This document shows positions 5,751-64,000 of a stretch of 64,000 nucleotides of DNA, piece after piece; position 1 is the stretch's first letter, and each line of letters begins with the position of its first letter. Below the pieces are notes generated by a model. That model was given only the letters and a program-made list of their open reading frames with translations. It was not told where the DNA came from and did not search any database. The DNA comes from Procambarus clarkii. Its lineage: Eukaryota > Arthropoda > Malacostraca > Decapoda > Cambaridae. The translations under genes and the position numbers were made by a program. The stretch spans positions 13,239,241 through 13,303,240 of the forward strand of contig NC_091237.1 of the NCBI RefSeq assembly GCF_040958095.1, given 5' to 3'.

Positions 5751-7480
5751 TTGAATGTAATGAAACACCATTTTCCGAGTGAAACCCGGAGCTATACCAG
5801 GCTGATGCATATGTATTAGACCGTGGCAACAGTCAATCGATGGAGTTCTAGAGCTACCAGGACCACGAGCTAGAACCTGGCCCCCTCAGAGAGGCACGAG
5901 GAGCAATGGCCTATAGACACCCCCATATGGTTGGAAGCAGTCTATGTCTGCCATTTACCAGGTCAGGCACCCAGAAAGGTAAGAATCCCCAAACTACAGC
6001 TGGTTAAAAATTGCAAACCAAAAGCCGAACAAGCAGGCAGAGCTCCCCAATCAAAAAACAAGCAAACAAGCATGATGTCACCACAGCTGCCGGGATGCTG
6101 TCCGTGCAGCTCCCCCTCCTCTTCCTGGGAGGAAAAAGGGGTAGCCCCAGACCTCCCATGTTGGCTACCCAACCCCAGTTCAGAGGCTCAATATAAAAAA
6201 TGCAAACAAACTCCTCAACTCGAAGTCGAGACAACTGGCTCCAACCTATGACCCAAGGCTACACAAGCCCGAGAAGGGCCCGGAATATTAATAAGGTACC
6301 GTGCGGCCAGGACCTGGTCTGGCCTTCAAAAACCCTGTGCCTGAATGTCAACCCAGGACATATCAGAAATAGCAGCCAAAGCTGCGAACTTACAAATGTC
6401 GTGGTCACGGGATAGACTGCAGGCTGGCTGGACCGAATAATCCTGCGGACAACCTGGGAGACCCGTGTCATGGAACAGGGAAGAAGTTAAACCAGGTCAA
6501 CCCAAAGCACGTCCCCTGCCATGGAGGCTGTGGCACACAAGTAATGGCAAAGAGCCGCAACCGGACACAAAACATGATGCACCCCTGGCCAAACCAACCA
6601 AGCATCAACAACGCAAGGATCCCTCCTGAAAGTAGCAGTCTCATTCTTCCTCAGAAAAGAAGGAGACGACTGCAAACGAACGACCACTAGGACCGAAAGA
6701 GCAGAAACCCGTGCTGAAGGAGAGCATGAAGCTCCCTGACCTGACACTCAGAGGTCAATAACACAAAGAAAAGAACCTTAGAAAAAGAGTCCTGAACCAA
6801 AGGGGCCACCACAAACCGAGGAAAAGAGAGCACCCGCTCCAACGACCAGGACGGCTCAGGCGGCACATGAGCAGGCCGGAGATAAAATAACGCCCGAGAA
6901 AGCTTGTGGAATGGAGCAGAAGTGACATCCTTCCCGAATGCATGCCGAGGCGGCTTGAATACGAGGCGACAGTATTCGACATAAGATGACAGTCCTGAAA
7001 CATCCAAGAGAGAAATGACAAAACAACCCAATCAGAAATTGAAGACAACCAACGAAGAATCAAGAAGTGCCAAAAGGACCGGCAGGAAACTTCATACTGG
7101 CGTCGAGACGAAACTTGCAGGTGGGACACCATTAACAAAGTCACCTGGTCACCACAAATGGTGATAAACCCACATCAAAAAGACCAGATGTGAAGATCGG
7201 AAGAGAAGATCGAACCAGCCATGTACTAGACTGGACAGATCCACTGAAAGAGGTGGAGCTGCGGGAAGACCCTCGGGGTTCGGACACCGAGCAAGACTTC
7301 GGGCCAAAGGTGTCATTGACCCAACAGGCAGCATGGTGGAGGCAAAGACAGTGAATGTCACCCTGAGACAAGGACAGAGCAACCTTCAAACTCGTATGAA
7401 GCAAGGTGGGACTCATTGGTCCAATGGAGGACTCCTCCATTGGACCAATGAGCCCCAATGGGGGTTTCCAGGGTCCTTAA

Positions 7481-9068
7481 CCCTCAAACCGCGCATATCA
7501 TATATAAATGATATCAGTGACAAAACCGAAACCGCGCACATCATTTATATATGATTTCGTGTCTAGCGCTATAATTTAAACTCCCTGCCTGGGATAGGGG
7601 CAGCTATAGTACAGCCACGACCGATAGTTACCAGATGCCACCTAGAAAAAAAATCCAGGCCAACATTCTTGGGTGGTACAGTGTCAGTATTGAGCAAGCC
7701 ACCAAGGCTGGCGCACGCAGCACGAGCTCACAGCACCGCTGTTCAGCTTGTGACCACAGCATCGCCTACAAATACCATAATATATATGATACTACTATTA
7801 TTTAGCAGTGATAGTATTACTGAAGCCCCCTGACTGTGATAAAACTGACCAGGATTCTGATAATAGCAGGATTGTGGTAATATTTAGCGCTGTGTTCCAT
7901 GGAGGGAGGCGTAAGGCTGTGCGAGGGAGGGTTGTGGCGTCGTCTTCTGACTGTGTGTGGCCACCATTTATTGACTGCACTCACCATACCAGCTTAGTGG
8001 TTCGATATGGTGAACACAAATGTAGATACTTATATATAACGTGTGTATAGAGTGTGATAACAGCGAGAGGAGTAGGTTGGGAGCCGCCATTTTGGTGAGG
8101 GAGGAGCGTCGTCTGCACGTCTTGGCATGGTGTTTACTGATGGCCACTATGGTCTTTGGGCACCATACCAGCTTATTTGTTCAGGTATGGTGAATAAAAC
8201 AGGTAGATACTTATATATAATGTGTATATAGCGTAATAACACCACAAACAATATTGTTGAAGGACAAATATTAGTGCGTCTGGCCTTGAGGGCGGCCGCC
8301 GATCAGCTGACTGTGTGAGAAGCTACGTCTTTGTGGCCTTTACTCACCATACAAGCTTAGATGTACAGTTATGGTGAACAAAACATGTAAATACGTATAT
8401 ATAACATCTGTGGATAGTGAATAAATACAGAAAGAGTATTGTAGGAGGTGAATGAGGGTGAGTGAGGTGGTGTTGAGGGAGGGAGTGGCAGTGAGTGGCT
8501 CGCTGGTGTTTGGCGGTCACTCCTCGTTGCTTTTTGACTCACAAGACCAACTTAGTAGTTCGTTATGGTGTACAAAACATGCGAATACTTATATATAACC
8601 TGTGTATATAGTGTAACAACAGCAAAACTATTTGTTTATTGTTTTATGAACATAATTGAATCACTAATATGCACACCATAATTTTGAGTACAGCGATGGT
8701 TCACACATTTTATAATATAAATATACCACAATTCACTGTATGGAATAATATTACTGCAAAAAAACTAAGAAAAAAATCAATCAGAGACATTGAAATAATT
8801 AGGTAATAATATATTTGTGGCAACTGCCGTCTGACAGCTCGGGCGGAGTAGACCTCATCTGGCGAAGGCTCTGCCAACGCCCCTTTTTTGCCACACTTCC
8901 CTACCCTATTGCGGCTAAAATATGCCACCTACGATTTTTTTGTTATTTTTTCCGTGATCAGGTTACAAAAATGAACACTTCTATAAGACGAAAGAATTTT
9001 TTGGAATTTTTTTTTTTTTGTTGCGCCTGTGGGTGTGAATTCCATTTGGGCCCCTAGCGGTTTGAGGG
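7481..9068. mobile_element. P element 1: TTAA-flanked, piggyBac-like, non-autonomous
   Basis: TTAA duplications at 7477-7480 and 9069-9072 flank perfect 12-bp terminal inverted repeats, CCCTCAAACCGC and GCGGTTTGAGGG. The 1588-bp body has no transposase. Four tandem diverged monomers of about 180-196 bp start at 7980, 8160, 8343 and 8541. Each begins with a stem of the form CACCATA...TATGGTG followed by GAACA and TAGATACTTATATATAA. The first 100 bases hold AT-rich palindromes such as ATATCATATATAAATGATAT. It is inserted in DIRS fossil 1, so it is younger than that element. Confidence 0.85.
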
Positions 9069-9962
9069 TTAATCAGACTGCTAAGGGAAGCCCAGGGAAA
9101 GTATTGCTAACCAGTTATACCAGAGTTACCAAGTAATCAAACTAAAAGCTGAATCCCTGCGACGTATACAATCACGGGGGTCTAGAGGAGGACTACCAAA
9201 AATAAAAATGGACCTATAGCCACACAAGGCAGACCCCTGTCAGGCAAACAAAACAAGAAAAGAAAACCCCCTGTAAAAGCACAATGTCTCTAAGGAAACA
9301 GAACCGGCCTCTATGCATATATTCAGCCAGCTGCACAGTACCTTGCACCCCAGCCAGCAATGATAATAACTCCTACTCAAGGTCAAACAAGAGGCAGGAA
9401 CAACTCCAGCTGACCCCAAGGGCGGGCAACCACCGAGCAGCAAAAGAACCCTGCGGAGGTAGCTCCCGAACGGCTTATAGAGGAGTAAGCTTATGGAACG
9501 AGAATGTTCTCTTATGGAAGATAACGGCTTATGGTAATGCCCTGTAAGCAAGGCCAGTACTTACAGGGCACCTAGGGAAGGTGACCTTAGGCACATACAG
9601 CCCTAGTGCTTATGGAATTACTCCTGGCTTGCACACCACCACACAACAAGGCACAACACTGCTCAAGTATTGGAGCCAGAGTCGATCGCCTGCCACCCAA
9701 CACAACAGCCTCAGAGATCAGGTAGCCAGTGCACAAGGTCTGGGGCTCCCCCTTCCCCCTCCCAGGGGGGGGGGGGGGGGGGGGAAAGCTTCTCGGACAG
9801 CGGTGCGGCGGCTGAGATGACATCATGCTTGCTTGTTTGTTTTCTCATTGGAGAGTTCGGCTTTCGGTTTTCAATTTTTAACCAGCTATAGTTTGTTTTG
9901 GGATTCCTTCCTTTCTGGGTGCCTGACCTGGTAGATGACAAACATAGACTGCTTCCAGCCAG

Positions 9963-27100: not shown

Positions 27101-30100
27101 CCAAATACTCCAGAATACCCCAGGGAAGATAACCCTGGCACTGCAAGAGTAGCACTAAAGAGCACACTGGAAACATGCACTTGGCTCATGTTATAATACA
27201 GTGTACAAGAAATGCATGAAGAGCAAACACCACAACTTAGCTGAAGAAGCAAAACATGGAAGCATGGACGAGAAGCAACCTGGTACCTACTAAATCAGCC
27301 ATAGAAGTGAGCGTGGTGATGCCGGCTGGTGGTGGGTTACCTCCCCCATCCCCCAAACAAGTGACGAAGGTGGGGCAAATGAGCTCGTGCTAGTTCCATC
27401 AGAATTCAATCATTTGTTTACATTGTGGGGGAGTTCTTTTGGTGATTCTCAAGGTTTCAGTCTCTATTGAAGCCAGCAGTGGTTTCTTTTGACTCGTTGA
27501 CTTTCTGGTCACTTTCCCCAGTCTGTGGCGAAAATAAATGTCGCCCACTCCTTGCGCCTCTTTGAGGGATGGGGGGGGGGGGGGAGGGGGGCAGATTTTG
27601 GTGCTGGTCCCTGAGAGGCCTGTGGAATTCCAAAACTGATGCAACTTCATAGATGTTACCATATCAATACATAGTAGCATCAGGAAGCAACAATGGGCTC
27701 CCCCTTCTCCCCTAGAAAATAGCATTATTTTTTATGGTACATGATGGTATCGCAGATACTATATAGCACCTTGCAAAGAATTTTGATAATGATGGTTGCA
27801 TAACATCAAAAGTATAACAAGAGGCTCATCTTGCCTTCTGCCTAAGATATCTAACCAATGCAAATCACTTCATTATTTCTTCTTAAAGTAAAAATAGATT
27901 CTACATCATTAAGGAGTACAGTACGGGTACAGTATTACCAAATTATTTTATTATTACTGCTTTCATCAAAAGCAGCACCAACCTGATTGGAGAGGAATGT
28001 GGTCTCTCCCTGTGCATGCTAGTTCCTGATCTACAGTACAGTCACCTGGGATATCAGCTTTTTCCAACTCACCCGGAACAAACTAGGTAAAAGCTTTCAA
28101 ATACCAATTTTAATCTCGCACATTACTGCAACAGCAGACTGTTCTAGCTGGACATGCCTTAACATAAAATAAGGATTGGCAGAGCTACGATCTTAATTAC
28201 AGCATTTGCAAATAATGAAAGTTATGATACTATGTTTATATACAAATTGTATGGAAAATTAGAATTCATAACCAAATACTGTAGTTGTATTTTATATGCC
28301 ATTAGAACCAAGGGAGTTTATTGAATGGAGCACTTGTTGAGCTAAGCAGTAAGATACGAAACAGCTGTTTGACCCTAAACTTCAAACATGTTTGCCATCC
28401 TCCACCTAGCAAAAATGTCCTATCATATACATATTCAGTTATTAGGACCTGTGTCACTGAAGTTTGGACTACTATTTCATCTTGCACAATAAAAATTGCA
28501 TTAGCATATATATTCTGGGAGATTTATGAAGGTAAATAGTGTTTTCTGGGAGATCAGTGTTGGTGGATGCATAATCCTAAATCAAATACAGCGACACCTC
28601 GACTTACGATCGACTTACAATTTTTTCGAGTTACGATATAAATTTGGTCGGAAAATGCGACAACTTACGATCGTGTCGTCGACTAACGATATTCGTTGAT
28701 ACACGTTCGAGTTTAATAGACCTTGGACTGGGGCTTTATCTTCAGCTCTCCCATTGACACTTGGCATTGTTAGGTGCTTCACTTTTGGTCTTCATCTTTA
28801 ACCACTTAACTGCGCCGAGTATTCTCGGCCGGTGGGAAACTGTGTTAACCCTTAAAGTGCACATCACGTCATATGACGTGTTGGTGTACTACGCAAGATT
28901 TAAACGGCCCGCGGATACACGGGGTTCACCACACTTTCATCAGGGCTCTTGTAAACAGACGCCATTTTTTACAAAAATCGTGGGCCAAACTCCTGGGTGT
29001 TAGGGGCCTCAGTATTGAGTGAGCTACCAAGCCTGACGCATGCAGCATGAGCTCACAGCACTGCTGTTCAGCTTGTGACCACAGCATCGCCTAAAAATGC
29101 CATAATATACTTGTTCATGCTATTATGTAGTGATGATATTATTACAGAAGACCCCTGATTGTGATAAAACTGACCAGGGTTCTTCTGACTGTGTGTGGCC
29201 ACCTTTTATTGACTGCACTCACCATACCAGCTTAGTGGTTCGCTATGGTGAACACAAATGTAGATACTTATATATAACGTGTGTATAGAGGGTATAAACA
29301 GCAAGAGTAGGAGGTTGGGAGCCGCCATTTTGGTGAGGGAGGAGCGTCGTCTGCAGGACTTACCATGTTGTTTACTGATGACCACGATGGTCTTTGGGCA
29401 CCATACCAGTTTACTTGTACAAGTATGGTGAATAAAACAGGTAGATATTTATATATAATGTGTGTATATAGCGTAATAACACCACAAACAGTATTGTTGG
29501 AGGAGAAATATTAATGCGTCTGGCCTTGAGGGCGGCAGCCATCAGCTGACTGTGTGAGGTCCTACGTCTTTGTGCCTTTACTCACCATACAAGCTTAGAT
29601 GTACAGTTATGGTGAACAAAACATGTAAATATTTATAAAGTCTGTATATAAAAGCAAAAACAGTATGGTGGGTGGAGAATGGTGGCAAGTCAGGTGAGGT
29701 GAGGGAGGGAGGGAGTGGCAGCCAGTGGCGGGCTGCCACTGGCTGCCACTGCCACTCAGCATACCAACTTAGTGGTTCGTTATGGTGAACACGAATGTAG
29801 ATACTTATACTGTATATAGCGTCTGTATATAGTGAATAAAAGCAAAAACAGTATTGTGGGAGGAGAATGTGGGTGAGTCAGGTGACTTGAGGGAGGGCGT
29901 GAGTGGTTGGCTGGTACACGGCGGTCACTCCTCGTTACTTTTTGACTCATAATAGCAACTTAGTGGTTTGTTATGGTGAACAAAACATGCAGATACTTAT
30001 ATATAACCTGTGTATATAGTGTAATAACCGACAAAGTATTTGTTCACTGTTTGATGAACATAATTGAATCAACAATATGCACACCATATTTTTGAGTACA

Positions 30101-31981
30101 GTGATGATTCACTAATTTTATTATATAAATATATCAAACTACACACTATTGAATAATATTACAGCAAAAAACTACGAAAAATCGATCAGAGACATTGAAA
30201 TAATTAGGTAATTATGTCTTTGTGGCAACTCTGGCCTGACAGCTGGCGATGAACAGACCGCCTGGGACGCACGCTGAGTCAGCGCCTGTTTTTTGCCAGA
30301 CTTCCCCGCCCTATAGCGGGCAATATATGTCACTTACGATTTTTTTATTATTTTTCCCATGATCAGTGAACACAAATTAACAGATTAGGAAGAATTTTTT
30401 TTTTTTTTTCAAAATTACATGCGCCTGTGGGGAACAAAGGATATTATACCCCTAGCATGTTAAGGGTTAACCGAGAAAACTCTTTGATTTTTACGTACCC
30501 ATTCTAAATGTGTGCGTAGCTGGTTGTGTACAAAATGGACTCTTAGGACCTCCAGTGAGAGGTAACCATCTTGTAAAAAAATTCCCATAATACCCTAGGG
30601 CTGCTGGCTGGGTTAGTACTGAGTGAGCAACCATGGGTGGTGCACACGCCTCTGGCTCCCAAACACCTGTCCGACGCGGTGTTGAAAGATCGCGCTTTGT
30701 TGGTGAAATTCAAACCTTATTGTTTGAAGAACATAAGGGGTCATAATATTGGTGAAGCTAGGTGCAATAAGGACCTAACACAAAGGTCAGATGCAAGTGA
30801 TACAGCACCTATGAGGACGATACAGAGCGCGTATCCAGTTGTAGCTCTGAGCGCCACCCTTGCCCACCTATGCTATCTCCAATTTATATAGATGATACAT
30901 AGATGAATCGTTTTCTGCATTCACTGATGATGCATCTGATACAAGTAGCATAGATGTTAGCGGCTTCCATGGTGGTGTTTTCCATAGATATTTTCAAGAA
31001 TAGCTGAATCTCTTCCAAACTGACAGACTCTTCGAGGCTAGCTGAATCTTTCCCTGTGTGGGACCTTGCAAAGCGATCTTTTCATGACTACCTTACAAAC
31101 TGATCTTTTCCTATAATCTTTTCAAGACTACTTTATGCTTTACAAGCTTAGCTACATACCACCTACAGGTACTAAAGCCAAGGATGTACGTGAGTGCATT
31201 ATTTGCAAGCACACAGAACGAAGAAACAGGAAGCGAAAATCTATCTGTACCTGGTGCAACAAGAGCGAAGTTGCGCTGTGTACCATGGACTACAGATTAT
31301 TACTCACTTCCAAAGTACTGTGTAATACAGTGTGTTACTGTGTAAATAGTGTGAAACTGTACATACTGTAATTTTAGTGAATTTTTAACAAGTAATATTG
31401 TGATAATAAATATTTATTGTGGACACATTACTGACACATGTATCACAGTTCCATGGAACATTATGAACGTTCTACTGTATACACATTGTAAAGGACACAA
31501 ATATGCATCATATACGATAAAAAGCAAATAAAAAACGCATTGGAAATAGAGCAAATAATTGAAAATATATTTGTGACAACACCCGGTGTTTGAATGGCCC
31601 ACCCGACCGTGTCTGGGCGTGTCACGCACGGGCGACCAGCCACTGATGACGTCACAGCGCACCTTGTCCACGTCCCCACAGCCAAAGTGGAAATTGGTAT
31701 TTATTTTTACATAGACATGTTCAGGGAAGGGAATTTATCATTTTACGAATAAAAAAATTGGGGGGGAACACGATTTCATGCTTAAGGGGCCTCGTAGCCT
31801 GGTGGATAGCGCGCAGGACTCGTAATTCTGTGGCGCGGGTTCGATTCCCGCACGAGGCAGAAACAAATGGGCAAAGTTTCTTTCACCCTAAGTGCCCCTG
31901 TTACCTAGCAGTAAATAGGTACCTGGGAGTTAGTCAGCTGTCATGGGCTGCTTCCTGGGGTGTGTGTGTGGTGTGTGGGGG

Positions 31982-32021
<40 letters not shown>

Positions 32022-35000
32022 GTTAGTAAACAGTTGATTGACAGTTGAGAGGCGGGCCGAAAGAGCAAAGCTCAACCCCCGCAAAAACACAACTAGTAAA
32101 CACAACTAGTAAACACAGGGAATTTTACAATAAACTCGGTGCATCACAGGTTAAAGGTGAATGTGTTTGAGGTAGTCTTGCTGATGCTTCAGCCCATCTG
32201 TTCTTACAGGGCTGTTTCTGATGTTGTTTTCCTTGTTGTTATGATGCCTTCTCCAGGTACAGAGAAGGTATCAAAGTAAAAGGAGCCCAACTGCAAGACT
32301 GGTCAACATGCATTGACCAGTCAATGGGACCAGCATTGAGGACCAAATTGTGAGAAGTCAGAAGTGAGACTATCCTCGGCGACCAGCTCTTGTGGAGACA
32401 GCAAACATTACAGGGTCGCGCCTTGTAGGCCACCAAAGTGAAGATGCTAAGAACGCCAGCACTATGGTTACATCCAAAAACACTGCCCATCAAAAGCCTA
32501 CACAATTATAAAATCTGTGCAACAAGTATAACATCTGAACTCTATGACAAGTTTCCATTCAATGCCACGATCTCATTAGGGCAAGGAAGTTTGTTATATC
32601 TAAATGCATACTCTCAAACTCCCATCCTGGCCTGTCACTGACATTCTTCTACACGACTCGTCAATCTAGACTCCACAGGCGAGTGGAAAGTTGCCATCTG
32701 TGACGACCACAATCCTGACAGCTTCTTTCAACACTAACAGGAATGCAGATTCAATAACACACTCATCCCTCATAGGAGAGTAGCAATCACAACAGCAAGC
32801 TCTTTACCCCTTTAACTGCACGGCCTCCAAATATGACAACCCCCCCCCCCTCCCAGTGCGCAGGAAATAAATTCTCTTGAAAAAATTCTTTTGTTTTCTT
32901 AAAGTGTCAAAAACCCTTCCCTCAGTATGGGTGTCAAAAAAAAAATCAAAATTGTACTTACTTTGGCTGCTATGGGGTCTGTAAGTTGGGGTGTGACGTC
33001 ATCATTCCCCGTTCACCCGTCATGTACTCTCCCGGGGCAGGGCACGCGAGTTGGCGCGAATATATTTTTTTTCATTATTTGCGCACTGTTCCAAATACAT
33101 TTTATTTGCTTTTACGTGCTAATCCTATGTATAATGAACACATACACTATATTACTGCAGTAAAACATCCGTACTGTCCGAGGACACTGTTGCGTCATGA
33201 CATGTGTACACATATCCGACACACATTTCCAATGCATCATGCTAATTTATGTATATATACAATCTATTTACACATTGTACAGTATCACACTATATACACA
33301 CACACCATAAACACACTCGGAACTCTGCATGTGTGAGCTGCCACACCCAGCCAGTCCTCCCTCACTCCTCCAACACCGTACTCGCCATCACACCACCTCC
33401 CACCATACTGTTATTCACACCAATGTTTCATGTTCATTTATGTATATTTACAACATATTTTCACACTATACACTATCACACACTAAATACATTCACCATC
33501 AACACAACTCAGAACTCCGCAAGCGTGAGCTGCCACATGCCGCCAGTCCTCCCTCACTCCTCCAACACCTAGCTTACTCCTTACACCTCACTTGCCAACA
33601 TTGCTCCTCCCACCATACTGTTATTGTTTTTATTACACTTTTTACATGGTATGTATACCTATCTACATGTTTTATTCACCAGAACTATGCAAGTAAATTG
33701 GTATTGTTTCCAAACAGTACAGTGGCCACCATACACTGCACGAGAAATCACACAGCAGACGACGCTACATGTATAGTGTAATATAGTGTACGTGTTCATT
33801 ATACATAGGATTGGCACAAAAAAAATAAATAAAATGTATTTGGAACTGTGCGCAAAAAATGAACAAAAATCGAGTTTATCAACTGTTCAATGTCCCCAAT
33901 TTCTTCTAGATGGTATCTTAAATCATATTCAATGTCTAACAGGACATGATCACTCCTTTCCAAGGGAGGAAGGTACTTGATGTCAAATATCTCCTCCTTT
34001 CCTGGTGAATACTAGATCCAGTACATCCCCTTCCATTATTCTTGTGGCCTAATTGACGTGTTGATACAAGAATGTCTCCAGAATGAGGTCTACAAATCTT
34101 CAAGTCCTCCATTCTTGCTTCATAGGCCTCCCAGTCTATTGCTTAAAAGTTGAAGTCCCCAGTATCAACAGTCGTGATTAAAATTTATCTGCTTGTTCAA
34201 TAATTTCTCATGACCATTATGAGGCCCTCTCGTTTGTCATCCAGTTCTTCCTTTGTCCGTGTGTTGCTTGCTGGTGGGCTGTAGGTATTTAAAATTATCA
34301 GCGTATCATCCTGATTCCAGACCTGCAATGCCATTATGTCAATATCTTTAGGATTTTAAAATATTAACACACTTACCTTCAGGTGTTCTTTCACCAGCAC
34401 AGCCACTCCTCCCCACTTCCTAGTTTTCCTGTCACGTCTCCAAACTGAGTGGCCCCTTGGGAATACGACTTCATTTAATACATTTCCTTCAAGTTTCGTC
34501 TGATAATGCGATAATATCTGGTACCTTAAGCTGAATTATATCTTGCAACTCCAAAGTTTTTTTTTATCTAACTCCATCTTTTTTTTTTTTTTTTGAGATA
34601 CTGTATGTACAAGAGTTGTTACATTCTTGTACAGCCACTAGTACGCGTAGCGTTTCGGGCAGGTCCCTGGAATACGATCCCCTGCCGCGAAGAATCATTT
34701 TTTCATCCAAGTACACATTTTACTGTTGCGTTAAACAGAGGCTACAGTTAAGGAATTGCACCAGTAAATCCTCAACGACCAGGATACGAACCCATGACAT
34801 AGCGCTCGCGGAACACCAGGCGAGTGTCTTACCACTATCTTCTTGAGGTTATCTTGAGATGATTTCGGGGCTTTTTTAGTGTCCCCGCGGCCCGGTCCTC
34901 GACCAGGCCTCCACCCCCAGGAAGCAGCCCGTGACAGCTGACTAACTCCCAGGTACCTATTTACTGCTAGGTAACAGAGGCATTCAGGGTGAAAGAAACT

Positions 35001-38000
35001 TTGCCCATTTGTTTCTGCCTCGTGCGGGAATCGAACCCGCGCCACAGAATTACGAGTCCTGCGCGCTATCCACCAGGCTACGAGGCCCCCTACACCACGG
35101 AGACTGTTAATGTTGGTATATACTATTTTCAGGAACATATTCCCTTTTCCTTTGTTCCTTACTCCCCTTTCCACTAATGATTTTGTTGCCTTGTTTTTAT
35201 GTACTGTGACAATAATCTCCTTCAAGAGATTGAGCCTGCTCTTCCCTCCACAAATACGTCGCAACAAATATATATAACTACTATGGAAGAAATGTCCAAC
35301 AACGACAACAACACCAGCAAGGTTTGCCAGAGCGCAAAACGTATGCAGCCAAGAACACCTGCTCAGACTCAAACCGCCAAACTACCTGTCTTGCTGCCGG
35401 CTCCTCTGATTGGTCGCCGGTCGGGCTGCAACTGCACTCCACCCCCCCATACTACTTGATGTCTGGGGCCGCCACGACCTCAGTCCTCAGAATATTCCGT
35501 GCTTTCACAGTTAACACTTCTCCCTGCTAGACGTAAGCTTTAGCGTACGTATACTGAGAGAGGTGATAGCTTAAAGCCAATATTCCAGCACCTTTCATAT
35601 ACTTGTATATTGCACTTCTTGTTATTTTGTCTTAACGTAACTTTTCATTGTGTCATTTAATTATTCTTATTATTTTGATTGATTGATTTTATTATACGAA
35701 TTTGTTTGACCATTTTATTCATGTTTTATTTCTTTAACGTAATTAAAATTTCATTGTTAAAATTTACTTGTGTTTTGTGTGTCTTCTCCTTACCTTACCA
35801 CAGACGAAGTTCCAGATTTTCTATTTTTTTTTTAATACTATGTGACGAGGCCATACCCCTAGCTTTGAACAGCCGAACACCAACGCGTTACCGTCACAGT
35901 ACCATTACACTAGCTTTCCAGTCCCTGACACTTTGTAGAAAAAAGAATTTCTGTCTTCATTTCTATTCCCATTTAGAAGTTTTGCTTCTATGAGGTTCAT
36001 TTTCAGCTTTTCTCCATCTCCCTTTGAGAGGTCTTGTCTTATTGACCAAAGTTTGCCAACCTCATCACCTTGCAATTTCCTGGCATTTCTAAGCACTTCC
36101 ATCATGTTTTGTACTCCATTAAACATCACCCTTAAGGGGCAGTTCTTGTCTTTCTCATATTTTCCTATTCTTCTAAAATCACTGACATTTTCCTTCGAGT
36201 TTAGGCCTTCTCCTAAACCTATTATTTTCTATATGATTTTCATCTCTTCTGCTGCTCTGTCCACCCTAGATGAAATTTCCTTCTCTAAACATTAAAAAAT
36301 TATTATAGACTTACTTCTGTCTGCAGTGTTTTGTACTAGTTTACTGTTGGTTATCAGTTCTTTCCTAATTGCTTGCCTAATTTCTGCTTCTTGTTGGTCA
36401 TTTCTGGTTTTGACTTCCAAACACACTTCCTTGATTGCCTCTTTCTCTTTTACAACTTGCACATAAGTCTCTCTTATTTCTTCTTTATACTTTTCTATTT
36501 CTTTATTACCCTCCTCTATGTGAGTTGTCAATGAAGTTTCTCGTTGCATATCCTTGCCTAATTCTTTGTTAGCCCCTCAGGGTTCCTTGGACTTGTTTAC
36601 CATATGAGTATTTTCTTGTTAATTTCTTCAAATTCCCTACTCTTCACTTTCCATGCCTCATTATCCTTTCCTAGTTCCTTGATATGTGCCTTCTGTATCC
36701 TTACCTTATCAGTCAAGCTGGTAATTTCCTTACCTTGCTGGAAAATACTTCCTTTTAAATTACAAAACTCAATCTTGAGACCTTCATTTTCTTGTTCTAA
36801 TTTAATTACCTTTTCTTCATAATTCTTTAACATGTCCTCAATTATCACTAACCTGCCAAGAAAACCACCTTTCATTACATCTTGTTGTGAGAAACCTGCA
36901 AAAGATTCCTTTGTTAGTATGGTGTCCTCCCCTGTGGTGGCAGCCATCTTTGTTGTTGACATTCTGCTGTTTTGAAAGATCAACTTTTCTAGTCAAGATT
37001 TTTCATTCACTGACACTTATTTCTTATCTCTTAGTTTCTTTCTAAATTCCTTACACCTTCATGTGTTCTGGGATATCACTTGCACCCCTCACCCCTACTC
37101 CCTAACACTTTGATAATTTGAATTATCCTGGAGCTTGCAGCAGTGTGACTTCTCAATGTGATGTTCCTCCAAACACATTATGTTCACTTGCTATGTGTTC
37201 ACCATAGTGAACCACTAAGTTGGTATGGTGAGCCCAAAAACCAAGAGTGGGCTGCCACACCCAGCCAACCCTCCCTCACTCCTTCAACACCTAACTTGCC
37301 AATATTACTCCTCCCATAATACTGTTTGTGGTGTTTTTACACTATACACACATTATATATAACTATCTACATGTTTTATTCACTATAACTGTGCAACTAA
37401 GCTGGTATGGTGTCCAAACAGCATAGTGGCCACTGCATGACACGTCACACAGCAGACGACAGCCCCTCACTCATTCCCTCACCTAAATGGCTCCTCCCAA
37501 CATAAGCCTTTTGCTGTTATTACACTCTATACACATGTTACATAAAAGTATCTACATTTGTTTTCACCATAGCAAACCAGTAGCCTGGTATGGTGATTCC
37601 AGACAATAATATGTTGCCACACACCAGCCAGCAGCCAATGCCACCTATCCCTACCTCACCAAGATTACTCCTCCCACCATACTATGTACGTCGCTAGTTC
37701 TCACCACAATCCTGCCATTATCAGAATCCTGGTCACTAAATCATGTAAATAATTTTCCACATGTTTATTTTGTAAAGGAACATGAAAAATCATTTGAAGA
37801 ATTTTAGATGGACAAAATAATTGATGTGTGCTGTAGCTAACGCTGTAAACATCTTGAACAGCAGTTATTCACTGATATCTGAACATTGTACACAGTCTTT
37901 ATCTCAGTCAGGTTCTTCTGTAATACTATCATGGCTAAATAATACTAGATACGTATATATTTGGAAAATTTTAGGCAATGCTGTGGTTAAAAGCTGAACA

Positions 38001-41000
38001 GCAATGCTGTTCACTCATGCTGCATGTACTAGGCTTGGTTGCTCACTCAGTACCGAGGCCTTCACACACGGGAATGTTGGCCATGACAAAAAAAAAAAAA
38101 ATGCTGTCTATTCAGGAGAGCCCTGAGAAAGCTGGTGTGAACCCCGCGTAGCTGCGAGAGTTTTGAATGATACACTATACCTATAGATCCCTGAGGAGCG
38201 TTGCGCACCACCCATCGCCTCAAGGTGTGTTGTGCAGTGCAGTGGTTAATTAAAAGAAAAATATTTTATATTTTTTAAATCAACAACCCTGTTATAACCT
38301 AATAACTGTATAGTACAACCTCGATTCAACGTACCCCAATTCAACGAATCTCTGGCTAGATCGCACACTTTTCAGGCAGGATTTACTCACCCGGTTCGAC
38401 GAACAATGGTTCGCCGAAGCGGGGGATGTGCAGATTTGCTTACAATGTTGGGACAGAGTTCACAGACTGGTGGAAAATTTTCCCATTCTATCACAGGTTG
38501 CAATTAATAATTCCCTCATATGACAAGTTAGATCACACAAGTGGATCACACAAGGGGACCACACACGTGGACCACAAGCTTATGATGTTGGGACAGAGTT
38601 CACAGAGTGGTGGAAAACGTTCCAATTCCATCACAGGTTACAATTAATAATTCCTTCATATGACAAGTTGGATTACACAAGTGGACCACACAACAAGTGA
38701 ACCATATGAACCAAACACCAGCCAGAATGGTCCACACATCAAGTGAAGCATATTACCCAAACACCAGCCAGAGTGGTCCACACAAGTGTTTCCATGATTT
38801 TCATTCACCGATTTGTGGCACATGAGATCTTTGCAAATTTAAAGGCTGAAGCATGAATAGCTAGGTAATGTGTTGAAATCTCATATACTGTACATTTTCT
38901 GTAATGAAACAAGATGAGCAAGGGTGGACAGATAAGGGAATACCATACAGTAAACCTCACTTTACAGTGAGGTTTCACTCACTTTCGTCTATGTCATCAT
39001 AGTTCAGTGACCCATGACTTTGAACGTTTCAGATTAATAAATAATTTCTAAAACCGGTGTTTTAATAGCTCTTTATTATCCTAATTAAACTAAACTAAAT
39101 AAAACCAAAAATATACTGTAATATGATACATATCTGCTATTTGAGAAATAATTCATGTTATTGGTGGCACAACTCCAGCGCGAGTGAATGGGTCTAATCC
39201 GTGTGTACACACCATGCGTGTTTCGTTTGATTTCGTCGCCACAGTTCAGTGACCCACGGCTTCGAAATAATAAAATTAATAAATCACTTCTAAAGTAAGT
39301 ATTTTTTATAGCTCTTATTATCGTAATAATGTTGCAAAACTAAATATATAACCCAAAAATATATAACTTGATGTAAATCCAATATTTGAGAGAAATTTAT
39401 GTTACTGGATCTTGCTTAAACACCAGCCTACTGTAGGGTGTATAGACCTAGTCTGCGTTCGTACAGTAGGCACCCAGTGCCCTTAGCTTCGTCTGCGATT
39501 GACCTATTTATCCGCTGGTGGAAGAATAATAGTGGAATTTACCATTTTTTTACTACAGCTGTATTGTTATACAACAAGATGTCTCAGGGGCTAGCTAATA
39601 GTGCCTTATTAATGCCAAAAATGAAGCAATATTTTGCAAGAACTAGTAGCAGAAAATAAACCAGCACAGCCATACCCAGCACGAGCACAGCCGTACCCAG
39701 CACGAGCACAGCCATACCTAGCACGAGCACAGCCGTACCCAGCACGAGCACAGCCGTACCCAGCACGAGCACAGCAGTACCCAGCACGAGCACAGCAGTA
39801 CCCAGTACGAGCACAGCCGTACCCAGCACTAGCACAGCAGTACCCAGCATGAACACAGCCGTGCCCAGCTCGAACATAGCCATGCCCAGCACGAGCACAG
39901 CCATACCCAGCACGAGCACAGCCGTACCCAGCACCGGTACGACAGCAGCCAGCACCAGCTCAGAAGCAGCTGAAGCAAACACAGCAGTAGTGAGCACCAG
40001 CAAAGCTGATGCAAACATCTAAGAACATCATGTGGGGAGTGTACAGTTAGAATAAGTGTTAAATTTAAGTACATAGTGTTAGTGTTCAAGTAAGTAAGTA
40101 ATTATCAAAAGAAGGCACCAAACCGGGAAGGCTATGTAGCACCATCAAATGCGCAAAATAATCAGAGGGCGCTAAATATCACCAAGGATGCCAATACAAG
40201 AACAAAAACGCATAAGGCGAACGATATCAAAAGTATCCGAGTCGCCAAGAATTCTACTGAGGGACAGGTGACCGCGAGGGGCGGTCGGAAAGCAAGACAC
40301 ACGCTCGTCCTGAAAGTCAGGACATTCAAGAAGGACATGCACGACCGTAAGAGGGACAATGCAACTAGGACAATAAGGAGCAGGGCGGCGCTCCATCAAG
40401 TGACCATGGGTTAAGCGAGTATGGCCAATACGCAACCTCGCCAGAGCTGTTTCCAACCGCCGGTTACGATGGAAGGAGGACGGCCACGAGGAAACACAAC
40501 ATTTAAGAGTACGTAGTTTGTTACCAGTAACAGACAACCAAGAACCCTGCCAACGGGTAAGGACGGAGGAATGGATAACCGGGTAAAAGTCGGAATACGG
40601 AATACCTTTACGAGAGATGGGACAAGAGCAGACAGCTTCCTTAGCGGCAGCATCTGCACGCTCATTTAAAGACACACCAATATGGCTGGGAACCCAACAA
40701 AACTCAACCGACTTAAATTTACTGTGAACAAGAAACAGCCAATGCTGGATCTCGACAACTACTGGATGAACTGGATTAAAGGACCCGAGAGCCATGAGGG
40801 CACTACGAGAGTCAACAACAACTACAAAGGAGGACTGACAACGAGAAAGCAGGAGACGAAGAGCATAGAGAATAGCATAAAGTTCCGCTGTAAAGATGCT
40901 AGTCTCCGGAGGTAAGCGACACATATAAGTGCGATCAGGAAAAACAACAGAGTAGCCAACACCGTCCGCCGACTTAGACCCATCGGTGAAGACAGAAACG

Positions 41001-48398: not shown

Positions 48399-48402
48399 TT
48401 AA

Positions 48403-49953
48403 CCCATAAACTGCGCAACACCTCATATGACGTGTTGAGTAACTTGCCCAAAAGTGCGCATCACGTCATATGACATGTTGGAGTACTATGCAAGATTTAA
48501 ACGACCTACGGATACACAGGGTTCACCTCACCTTCATCAGGGGTCTTGTAAACAGACGCCATTTATTTTTTTAAATCGTGGGCAACATTCCCGGGTGTGA
48601 GGGCCTCAGTACTGAGTCAGCCACCAAGGCCGGCAAATGCAGCATGAGCTCACATCACTGCTATTCAGCTTGTGACCACAGCATCGCCTAAAAATGTCAA
48701 AATATATATGTACATGCTATTACTTGGCAATGACAGTATTACAGAAGACCCCTGTGATAAAAATGACCAGGATTCAGCTAATAGCAGAATTGTTGTGATA
48801 ATTAGCGCTGTAGTAGGAGAAGTAATCTTGGTGGGGAGGGAGGTAGCGTTGTCTGCTGACTCTGTGTGACCACCTTTTACTATCTGGACTTATACTAGCT
48901 TAGTGGTTCGCTATGGTGAACAAAACGGGTAGATATTTATATATAACGTCTGAATATACAGTAGTGAATAAAAGCAAACACAGTATGGTGGGAGTAGAAT
49001 GTTGGCAAATCAGGTGAGGTGAGGGAATGGCAGCCAGTGGCGGGCTGGCTGGTGTGTGGTGGTCACTCCTTGCTGCAGTTTGACTCGGCATACCAACTTA
49101 GTTGTTTGTTATGAACACAAATGTAGATACTTATACATGTATATAACGTGTATATATAGTGTAATAACAGCAAAAGGAGTGTTGGAAGAAGCCATTTTGG
49201 TGAGGGAGGTGGTGTCATCTTCTTGACTTGTCATGCTGTGTAAGGGTGGCCACTATGCTCTTTGTGCACTATACCAGCTAAGATGAACAGAACATGTAGA
49301 TACTTATATATAACGTCTGTATATAGTGAATAAAAGCAAAAACAGTATGATGGGAGGAAGATGTTGGCGAGTGAGGAGTTTTTGAGGGAGTGGTGGCGAG
49401 AGGCTGACTGGCAGATGTGGTGGCCACTTCTCGTTGCTTTTTGAATCGCAATATCAACTTAGTGGTTCATTATGGTGAACAAAACATGCAGATACTTATA
49501 TATAACCTGTGTATATAGTGTAATAACCAACAAAGTATTTGTTTATTGTTTTATGAACATAATTGAATCAATAATATGCCCACCATAATTTTGAGTACGG
49601 CGATGATTCACATTTTATTATTTAAATATATCATACTACACACTATTGAATAATATTACAGCAAAAAAACGAAGAAAAAATCACACATTGAAATAATTAG
49701 GTAATTATATCTTTGTGGCAACTCCCGCCTGACAGCTGTGGCGGAGCAGAACTCCCCAACGCTTGCTGAGTCAGCATCACTTTTTTGCCAGACTTCCCTA
49801 CCCTATTGCAGCCAAAATATGCCACTTACGATTTTTTTATTATTTTTTCCTGTGATCAAGGAACACAAATTAACAGGTTTGTAAGAGAAAAAAAAATTTG
49901 ATTTTTTTTTTTATGCACCTGTGGGTGACAAATGCCAAATAGCCCAGAGCAGC
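48403..49953. mobile_element. P element 3: TTAA-flanked
   Basis: TTAA lies at 48399-48402 and 49954-49957. The left end is CCCATAAACTGCGC, and the right end AGCCCAGAGCAGC is degraded. Two copies of the TCATATGACRTG palindromic motif lie near 48422 and 48466. P-type monomers lie at about 48890, 49090, 49265 and 49445, each with TAGATACTTATATATAAC or a close variant. Its right TTAA is also the left TTAA of P4. Confidence 0.82.
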
Positions 49954-49957
49954 TTAA

Positions 49958-51554
49958 CCCATAAAGTGCGCATCACGTCATATGACAAGCTGGACGTTGT
50001 TCCAGTCAACTGCGCATCACGTCATATGATGTGTTGGAGTACTATGCAAGATTTAAACAGCCCGCGGATACACGGGGTTCACCACACCTTCATCAGGGCT
50101 CTTGTAAACAGACGCCATTTTTTTTAAAAATCGTGGGCCAAACTCCCGGGTGTTATTGGCCTCAGTATTGAGTGAGCAACCAAGCCTGACGCACGCAGCA
50201 TGAGCTAACAGCACTGCTGTTCAGCTTGTGACCACAGCATCGCCTAAAAATGCCAAATTATACTTGTTCATGCTATTATGTAGCGATGATATTATTACAG
50301 AAGACCCCTGACTGTGATAAAACTGACCAGGGTTCTGATAATAGCAGGATTGTGGTGATATTTAGCGCTGTGCGCCATGGAGGGAGGAGTAATGCTGTGG
50401 GAGGGAGGGTGGTGGGAGGGCCACACAAAGTCAAAGTCTTTTGACTTTGTGTGGCCACCTTTTATTGACTGCACTCACCATACCAGCTTAGTGGTTCGCT
50501 ATGGTGAACACAAATGTAGATACTTATATATAACGTGTGTATAGAGGGTATAAACAGCAAGAGAAGGTTTGGAGCCGCCATTTTGGTGAGGGCGGTGGGG
50601 TCATCTGCACGACGCCACCGTGCAGACGACGGTGTTGTTTACTGGTTACCACGATGGTCTTTGGGCACCATACCAGTTTATTTGTACAAGTATGGTGAAT
50701 AAAACAGGTAGATATTTATATATAATGTGTGTATATAGCGTAATAACACCACACAGTATTGTTGGAGGAGAAATATTAGTGCATCTGGCCTTGAGGGCGG
50801 CCGCCGATCAGCTGACTGTAGCCACATCTTTGTGCCTTTACTCACCATACAAGCTTAGATGTGCAGTTATGGTGAACAAAACATGTAGATACTTATATAT
50901 AACGTCTGTATATAGTGAATTATAGCAAAAACATTATTGTGGGAGGAGAATGTGGGTGAGTCAGATGACTTTAGGGAGGGCGGGAGTGGCTGGCTGGTAA
51001 ACGGCGGTCACTCCTCGTTACTTTTTGACTCATAATAGCTACTTAGTGGTTCATTATAGTGAACAAAACATGCAGATACTTATATATAACCTGTGCTTAT
51101 AATGTAATAACTGACAAAGTATTTGTTCACTGATTGATGAACATAATTGAATCAACAATATGCACACCATATTTTTGAGTACAGCAATGATTCACTCATT
51201 TTATTATATAAATATATCAAACTACACACTATTGAATAATATTACAGCAAAAAAAGTATGAAAAATCAATCAGAGACATTGAAATAATTCGGTAATTATC
51301 TCTTTGTGGCAACTCCAGCCTGACAGCTTGCGAGCAAAAGACCGCCTGGGACGCACGCTGAGTCAGCGCCTAGAATTTGCCAGACTTCCCCGCCCTATAG
51401 CAGGCAATAAATGCCACTTACGATTTTTTTATTATTTTTCCCGTGATCAGTGAGCACAAATTAACAGGTTAGGAAGAAAAAATCATTTTTTTTTTTTCAA
51501 AATGACATGCGCCTGTGGGGATGACAGGATATTAGACCCCGAGCATGTTAAGGG
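49958..51554. mobile_element. P element 4: TTAA-flanked, tandem with P3
   Basis: The left TTAA is 49954-49957 and the first right TTAA is 51555-51558. The left end CCCATAAAGTGCGC is followed by two copies of CATCACGTCATATGA about 50 bp apart. Monomers start near 50476, 50667, 50840 and 51030. A perfect 17-bp-stem hairpin (GGCCACACAAAGTCAAA, loop of 4) lies at 50419-50456. The right end is GAGCATGTTAAGGG, as in P2. The body is closer to P2 than to P1. Confidence 0.85.
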
Positions 51555-51612
51555 TTAAACCCTGAGCATGTTAAGGGTTAAACCCTGAGCATGTTAAGGG
51601 TTAAGGGTTAAA
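51534..51612. repeat. triplicated terminal sequence of P4
   Basis: The 22-23-bp unit ACCCTGAGCATGTTAAGGGTTA, i.e. P4's right end plus its TTAA, occurs three times in tandem. An extra AGGGTTA follows. It looks like local duplication or repeated end insertion. Confidence 0.9.
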
Positions 51613-63240: not shown

Positions 63241-63274
63241 TGAGATGCAACCAAAACAGAAATGCTATAATTAA

Positions 63275-63645
63275 CCCTTTAACTACACAACGTGCCTGCA
63301 GGCCCACGTCTGGGGTGTGCTACGCGCCTCCGGGTATTTGTATTTTTCATGTTCCATTCAAAACTCCCACGGCTACATGGGGTTCCCATCAGCTTCCTCA
63401 GGGCTCTTGTAAACAGACGCCATCTTTAAAAACTACGTTCACTCAGTACTGAGGCTCTCACACCCAGGAATGTTGGCCACGATTTTTTTTTTTAAATGGT
63501 GTCTGTTTATAAGAGCCCCGAGGAAGCTGATGTGAACCCCATGTAGCCGTGGGAGTTTTGAGTCGTATACTAAAAATATAAGATCCCGGAGGCACGTTGC
63601 GCACTCCCCGTCGAGCGCCTGCAGGCGCATTGTGCAGTTCAATGG
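63275..63645. mobile_element. 371-bp foldback MITE of the P group
   Basis: TTAA at 63271-63274 and 63646-63649 flanks ends CCCTTTAACTACACAACGTG and (reverse complement of the right end) CCATTGAACTGCACAATGCG. The two halves are inverted copies of each other: GGGGTTCCCATCAGCTTCCT on the left and AGGAAGCTGATGTGAACCCC on the right, around AAACAGACGCCAT / ATGGTGTCTGTTTA. The arms match the first 120 bp of P2 and P4. It is thus a head-to-head pair of P ends. Confidence 0.87.
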
Positions 63646-63754
63646 TTAAGTACTTTATTACTTTTTATTTTACTCATTTGTTATTTTTTGTGAACTTTCT
63701 CAACTTTATTAGCTTCTCATTTAGTTTAAAGTGCTTACCCTTTCACACCTTTAA

Positions 63755-64000
63755 CCACTGAACTGCACCAACTGAGTATTCTCGGTCGGTGGAAAATTGC
63801 GCCAACCGAGAAAACTTTGATTTTTTCGGACCCATTCTAAATGTGTACAAAATGGACTCTTAGGACATTCAGAAGGCAACCATCTTGGAAAAAATTCCCA
63901 GAATGCCCAAGGGCTGCTGGCTGGGTTAGTACTGAGTGAGCAACCATGGGGGTGCACGCTTCTCTGGCTCCCAAACATCTGTCTGACGCGCTCTGTTGGT
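63755..64000 (+). mobile_element. piggyBac-like element B, second copy (cut by window end)
   Basis: After TTAA (63751-63754) it starts CCACTGAACTGCACCAACTG and matches element B at 28802-28845 and 30467-30710. Shared stretches include GAGTATTCTCGG, ACAAAATGGACTCTTAGGAC, GGGCTGCTGGCTGGGTTAGT and GAGTGAGCAACCATGG. The ATG of the putative transposase lies at 63933-63944. It lacks the P2 insertion, so it supplies the empty-site comparison. Confidence 0.85.

Follow-up and report, generated by a model that had tools for sequence, protein, structure and literature searches.

A new non-autonomous piggyBac-type family of Procambarus clarkii carries a short internal tandem array

The P1 family of Procambarus clarkii is a real, well-formed and new family of piggyBac-type elements, its arrangement is of a known kind, and the origin of its repeats can be read in a sister family. 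We analyzed a 64-kb piece (C88:13239241-13303240, hereafter the window) of the 4.03-Gb genome (2308 contigs), in which an initial annotation had described five TTAA-flanked elements, P1 to P5, each with an array of satellite-like monomers. In our reading, P1-P4 are very probably MITE-like piggyBac elements that lost their open reading frame (ORF), in which the stop-codon/3'-UTR stretch was tandemly duplicated and which spread with a fixed unit number. The initial annotation was partly confirmed in its observation as a whole and partly supported in its interpretation, which held where it saw a piggyBac-type vehicle for tandem arrays and found no support where it had arrays changing in size between copies and elements seeding satellites. 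The features of the window are collected in Table 1.

Table 1. Elements, blocks and monomers located in the window
Feature	Position	Strand	Basis
P1, complete non-autonomous piggyBac-type element	7477..9072	+	TTAA at both ends; paralogous flanks without P1
P1 left terminal inverted repeat, CCCTCAAACCGC	7481..7492	+	partner 9057-9068
P1 5' block, L077 positions 1-240 (TTAA end to just past start codon)	7477..7715	+	81 bits, best of 100 shuffles 31
P1 monomer a	7982..8160	+	core profile
P1 monomer b	8161..8344	+	core profile
P1 monomer c	8345..8539	+	core profile
P1 monomer d, last, partial, overlaps 3' block	8540..8663	+	core profile, L077 collinearity
P1 3' block, L077 positions 2363-2898 (stop codon to TTAA end)	8546..9072	+	122 bits, best of 100 shuffles 31
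P3, five monomers, inserted in piggyBac remnant	28845..30470	+	uninterrupted relative at 63751-63990
piggyBac remnant hosting P3	left end 28798-28844; right part 30471 to about 31759		
S33, right part of sister family; one P-type and two stop-codon/3'-UTR-type units	32804..33760	-	
P5, three monomers, 3' end apparently missing	37194..38249	-	
P4, four monomers	48399..49957	+	last bases GGGTTAA at 51605-51611, beyond P2
P2, four monomers, nested in internal TTAA of P4's right end	49954..51604	+	
Short TTAA fold-back element, two inverted copies of one piggyBac left end	63271..63649	.	

P1 starts with TTAA-CCCTCAAACCGC and stops with GCGGTTTGAGGG-TTAA (7477-9072), so that the short inverted ends reported earlier were recovered as a perfect 12-bp terminal inverted repeat (TIR). 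This fits the piggyBac definition of a 12-19 bp TIR with terminal CC[C/T]T given in the cited passage of PMC2872659, a definition that does not hold for every member, as the left ends of P2 and P4 start with CCCA. The left ends of P1, P2, P4 and of the transposase-bearing element L077 carry a terminal motif (GCGCA followed by a palindrome) twice, and P2 has, just inside the outer TTAA on its right (51530-51611), about three iterations of a 23-bp unit whose last bases are GGGTTAA. P1 had no match to the transposases of L014, L037 and L029, nor had P2-P5; the sole match in the window to these proteins, at 31132-31281, lies outside P1-P5, and is a 50-aa stretch kept by the decayed piggyBac around P3 (28798-31759). 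With an internal tandem array between its ends and without transposase, P1 is a tandem-repeat-containing MITE. When the P1 interval was compared with the genome, 40 places were scored of 3929 candidates (L001-L008 and L039-L070), with 94-98% identity besides P1 itself, and this bears out the claim that a piggyBac-type element has carried a tandem array to many sites. Full-length copies, defined by a query start of ≤2 and an end of ≥1594, made up 34 of these 40 loci, the remaining six being partial, and the p-distance among the 34 averaged 0.020 (range 0.001-0.050). Two loci, L005 and L042, have common flanks and look like one duplicated locus.

The TTAA at the ends of P1 is a target-site duplication. 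An exact TTAA was present on both sides in 30 of the 34 full-length copies (exceptions L045, L053, L056 and L060). With the joined flanks of P1 as query, 38 of 43 rows crossed the junction uninterrupted (the letters of the rows were not displayed), and the other five were P1's own flanks (two rows) and short pieces (three rows). Among the loci retrieved for this analysis, a clear uninterrupted counterpart with one TTAA was seen for four of 24 joined P1 sites (L048, L054, L061 and L039), and in some empty-site counterparts of P1 copies the four TTAA bases were mutated. The host sequence of P3 is found uninterrupted at 63751-63990 (81%), but with CCAA where P3 has TTAA. Removal of P2 from P4 restores AGC-TTAA-GGGTTAA, the expected end of P4. 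Duplication of TTAA relative to empty sites had been set beforehand as one of two observations on which the proposal would stand or fall, and it held for both the joined flanks and the counterparts. TTAA flanks had been claimed for P1 to P5 alike, which is correct for P1 but not for P5. Since P5 has a TTAA end at 38249 only, and the nearest TTAA past its other side is at 36827, it looks truncated. P5-like sequence gave six matches, all ending at query position 811, within 4.4 Mb of contig C14 (44667213-49078840), and five matches on contig C103.

Insertion of one P-family member into another is common. Seven of the 34 full P1 copies are flanked by TTAACCC-like or GGGTTAA sequence, and L039 sits inside a P2-type end. 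We also considered that TTAACCC/GGGTTAA beside P1 ends is a reiteration of the end itself, and rejected this, as by eye L002, L008, L040, L043, L059 and L062 are better read as copies nested within the end of a different element, L006 being ambiguous. P1-like sequence was seen in the flanks of five of 30 transposase loci (L009-L038), namely L011, L012, L028, L031 and L033, and in L011 and L033 the P piece abuts a piggyBac end at a TTAA. A start of P3 at 28798, suggested by its match to L077, was likewise dismissed, since positions 28798-28844 form the left end of the host element of P3. The window also holds a 21-bp minisatellite of 13 units at 39663-39934.

A profile built from the four ~85-bp cores of P1 detected 21 monomers across the window (E≤7e-8) against none in a single shuffled version of it, in agreement with the claim that the monomers are tandem homologues. 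There were four monomers in P1, four in P2, five in P3, four in P4 and three in P5, with one more at 33.7 kb. The four to five monomers stated per element thus stand for P1-P4 and fail for P5, and of the two counts given earlier the four of P1 was right, whereas P2 has four and not five, P3 being the one with five. Full P-type units measure ~180-190 bp. In some monomer pairs the sequences that separate the cores resemble each other, but in several others they score no better than shuffles, and monomer homology is therefore clearest in the ~85-bp core. Each monomer had been said to start with a CACCATA...TATGGTG stem; the full 7-bp stem is present in 11 of the 21 and broken in the other 10, which include all four P4 monomers and the last monomer of P1, P2 and P3, among others. 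By core identity each first unit of P1, P2 and P3 has its nearest matches in the first units of the other two (93-100%), and the same holds for the second units (87-99%); the third unit of P1 is closest to the third of P2 (88%), and the final units of P1-P4 form one group. Exceptions to this position-wise grouping are the first three units of P4, the third of P3 and the third of P5. Since similarity follows position within the array, the array predates these families and its units have escaped homogenisation, the reverse of the pattern that a homogenising array would give.

The number of units is constant within families. All 40 P1 loci have four monomers, with spacings near 179, 186 and 195 (extra monomers outside the P1 match were left out of the count). 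With P3 as query 40 places were scored of 6736 candidates, and 32 of them cover query positions 337-1626; all 32 comparable rows are 1268-1319 bp long (only lengths were compared), a range too narrow for the gain or loss of a ~185-bp unit in any of them. Expansion or shrinkage between copies, as proposed earlier, thus found no support in P1 or in the P3-type rows. Many P3-type copies have about 85 bp near query position 338 that are absent from the P3 of the window. Between families and in divergent copies unit number does differ, from three to six in the elements read; L076 has six units and L071 five (one of them weak), and of the stop-codon-type (B-type) units there are two versus three in L074 and L075.

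The relatives that encode a transposase were located by PF13843 (DDE_Tnp_1_7), for which 116 matches were scored of 7109 candidates, at 277-290 bits and all over the cut-off. The transposase ORF of L014 is 729 aa and that of L077 712 aa, with 54% protein identity, and L077 (488-3385) sits at a PF13843 match. Because L077 and L078, on different contigs, are 100% identical over 2898 bp, and because 40 scored copies show 91-100% identity, the data suggest that this family has moved and been active recently. P1-P4 align with L077 in two collinear blocks, the first ~240 and the last ~530 bp. The 5' block runs from L077 position 1 (56 in P3) to 240-252 and includes the start codon at 229 (71-83 bits), and the 3' block runs from 2362-2363 to 2886-2898, with the stop codon at 2365-2367 (92-122 bits); the best of 100 shuffles reached 26-31 bits. 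By this alignment the P elements retain both non-coding ends without the transposase ORF, the monomers sitting in the place of the ORF, and with both P1 ends collinear with L077 the family is continuous with a transposase-bearing piggyBac element. The terminal 16 bases of P1 and L077 differ at two positions. Identity in the 3' block is 58-61%, which makes L077 a relative and does not give it the status of parent. Matches of L077 in the window at E≤1e-3 fell in P1-P4, S33 or the short fold-back element in ten of 12 cases, and the remaining two begin or fall within the piggyBac remnant that surrounds P3. L014 was considered as the nearest relative and set aside, as its ends fit worse (3' 40-55 bits, 5' 29-46 bits) than those of L077. 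Under stringent local scoring of the 3' block against L014, P1 was below, P2 equal to and P3 one point above the null maximum, with P4 clearly above; with blastn scoring suited to the divergence, all four exceeded the shuffles.

The origin of the repeats is most readable in the sister family (S33, L074 and L075), where the 3'-most units align with L014 2389-2496, an interval that covers the stop codon (2405-2407), the codons just before it and the 3'-UTR bases just after it. This stretch matches L074 at two places (~81%) and L075 with 78-80%, and the sister-family repeat is recognisable as the stop-codon/3'-UTR stretch of an autonomous element. In L074 a P-type and a B-type unit share their spacer (score 124 versus a null maximum of 32 among 300). 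In the P elements the last monomer runs into the beginning of the 3' block, where the stop codon lies. We infer that the P-type monomers derive from the same stretch, given their position and register, the overlap of the last monomer with the 3' block and the intermediates with shared spacers, pairwise similarity being weak. Single P1 monomers compared with the 3' UTR of L014 gave scores that were reached by 8, 25, 96 and 2 of 300 shuffles, and this direct match was discarded as weak. The monomer profile found nothing significant in L077 (best E 0.79) or in the autonomous elements of L009-L038, where matches were confined to neighbouring P pieces and a 3-bit match in L015, and tandem copies of the unit were not seen in the autonomous L014 and L077. 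No source was assigned to the ~265 bp that separate monomer a from the 5' block.

The sequence of events that we favour would start from an ancestor of the L077/L014 kind, which would have lost its transposase ORF and kept the 5' non-coding end together with the stop codon and all that follows it. Several rounds of tandem duplication of the sequence around the stop codon and early 3' UTR would then have given the units seen today. Transposase from resident autonomous piggyBac copies probably recognises the P ends, which would be cut and pasted into TTAA. Each family may have grown from one or few source copies, by which unit number would be frozen and the array carried as a passive passenger; changes in array size would be rare, perhaps by unequal exchange or slippage.

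Alternatively, a P element could have captured a pre-existing genomic satellite, as proposed for miDNA4. The weak resemblance of the P-type cores to the autonomous 3' UTR and the lack of an assigned source for the ~265 bp before monomer a would agree with this, but the last monomer reaches into the block that is collinear with the autonomous 3' UTR, the repeats of the sister family come from its own stop-codon/3'-UTR sequence and tandem probes found no free long array, so that we regard capture as very improbable. Those probes bear equally on the idea that arrays grow inside the element and give rise to long satellite blocks. Seven head-to-tail P-type units gave no match longer than 856 bp (40 scored of 2033 candidates, very common words skipped), the best match being the six-unit element L076, and six head-to-tail B-type units gave none longer than 597 bp, which corresponds to about three units (40 scored of 1631 candidates, very common words skipped); the places read among these matches were L076 for the former probe and L074 and L075 for the latter. 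A long array should have ranked first, and the assembly may itself lack satellite, so these results lower the satellite-seeding idea and stop short of proof of absence. Seeding as proposed by the initial annotation thus found no support. Unit number does range from three to six between families and about two or three in B-type copies, as growing arrays would have it, but with four monomers in every P1 locus, one length in every comparable P3-type row and monomers of P1, P2 and P3 most alike by position, active growth seems very improbable.

Duplication of the element's own 3' sequence followed by passive spread, our preferred reading, is compatible with a further suggestion, that the array is kept for function, the monomers serving as putative accessory sites that raise transposition by binding transposase or acting as enhancers. 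All five P elements of the window and all 40 P1 loci contain an array, and about half of the monomers (11/21) have the full stem; yet the stem is broken in the other ten, the autonomous L014 and L077 showed no tandem copies of the unit, and a fixed number is expected too from copying one source. We consider such a function unlikely. Rather more doubtful is that the stop-codon/3'-UTR junction is a duplication-prone point in this piggyBac clade, with arrays kept as a selected cis-acting part that helps gene-less copies compete for transposase.

The initial annotation knew of no named system of exactly this form, but comparable elements are described in passages of PMC12628747, PMC9659126 and PMC2872659. 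Tandem-repeat-bearing MITEs, one of them piggyBac, are already in print (excerpts of PMC2872659 and PMC12628747), and MITE-derived satellites are tabulated in PMC9659126. In the cited parts of these papers, Xstir is, like P1, a MITE whose tandem repeats stem from sequence inside the element itself, and is termed piggyBac type (PMC2872659); its repeat source is the TIR (table in PMC9659126) and not the stop-codon/3'-UTR side as here, and it also forms separate tandem arrays (PMC12628747), whereas none was found for P monomers in our tandem-probe search of the genome. The miDNA4 of Xenopus tropicalis (Scalvenzi and Pollet 2014), as summarised in portions of PMC12628747 and PMC9659126, is likewise a MITE with a satellite monomer in one or several copies, but it is Tc1/mariner, its repeat is proposed to be captured and its repeat number varies between copies, a variation that the 40 P1 loci do not show. 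For Daphnia, the relevant passages of PMC3849761 describe Pokey, a piggyBac that uses TTAA and has ~200-bp internal repeats in the full element, and mPok, deletion-derived MITEs that also use TTAA; as with the P family, copies often occupy a TTAA next to an existing copy (23% of mPok and 7% of Pokey). Unlike the P monomers, which lie on the 3' side, the repeats of autonomous Pokey consist of rDNA spacer and precede the transposase, and mPok is without internal repeats. CMITE of Acropora corals is a TTAA MITE with one family whose ends are like those of a resident piggyBac, but in CMITE whole elements are in tandem rather than an internal array (cited part of PMC2872659). Tetris of Drosophila virilis is a DNA transposon that gave the building blocks of a satellite; it differs from P1 in being a foldback element (abridged from PMC4079207) with the TIR as repeat source (table in PMC9659126). 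In the main text of a crayfish satellite paper (PMC13130569) MITE and piggyBac are absent, and among openly licensed papers we found no title or abstract opening about the P family.

How tandem repeats start is still discussed. In this one genome one-unit autonomous elements, elements with two or three units and diverged elements with four to six units coexist, and the first steps of array formation can therefore be studied in order. The P family also provides a counter-example, in that an array spread by a transposon to many sites can stay short and fixed in number.
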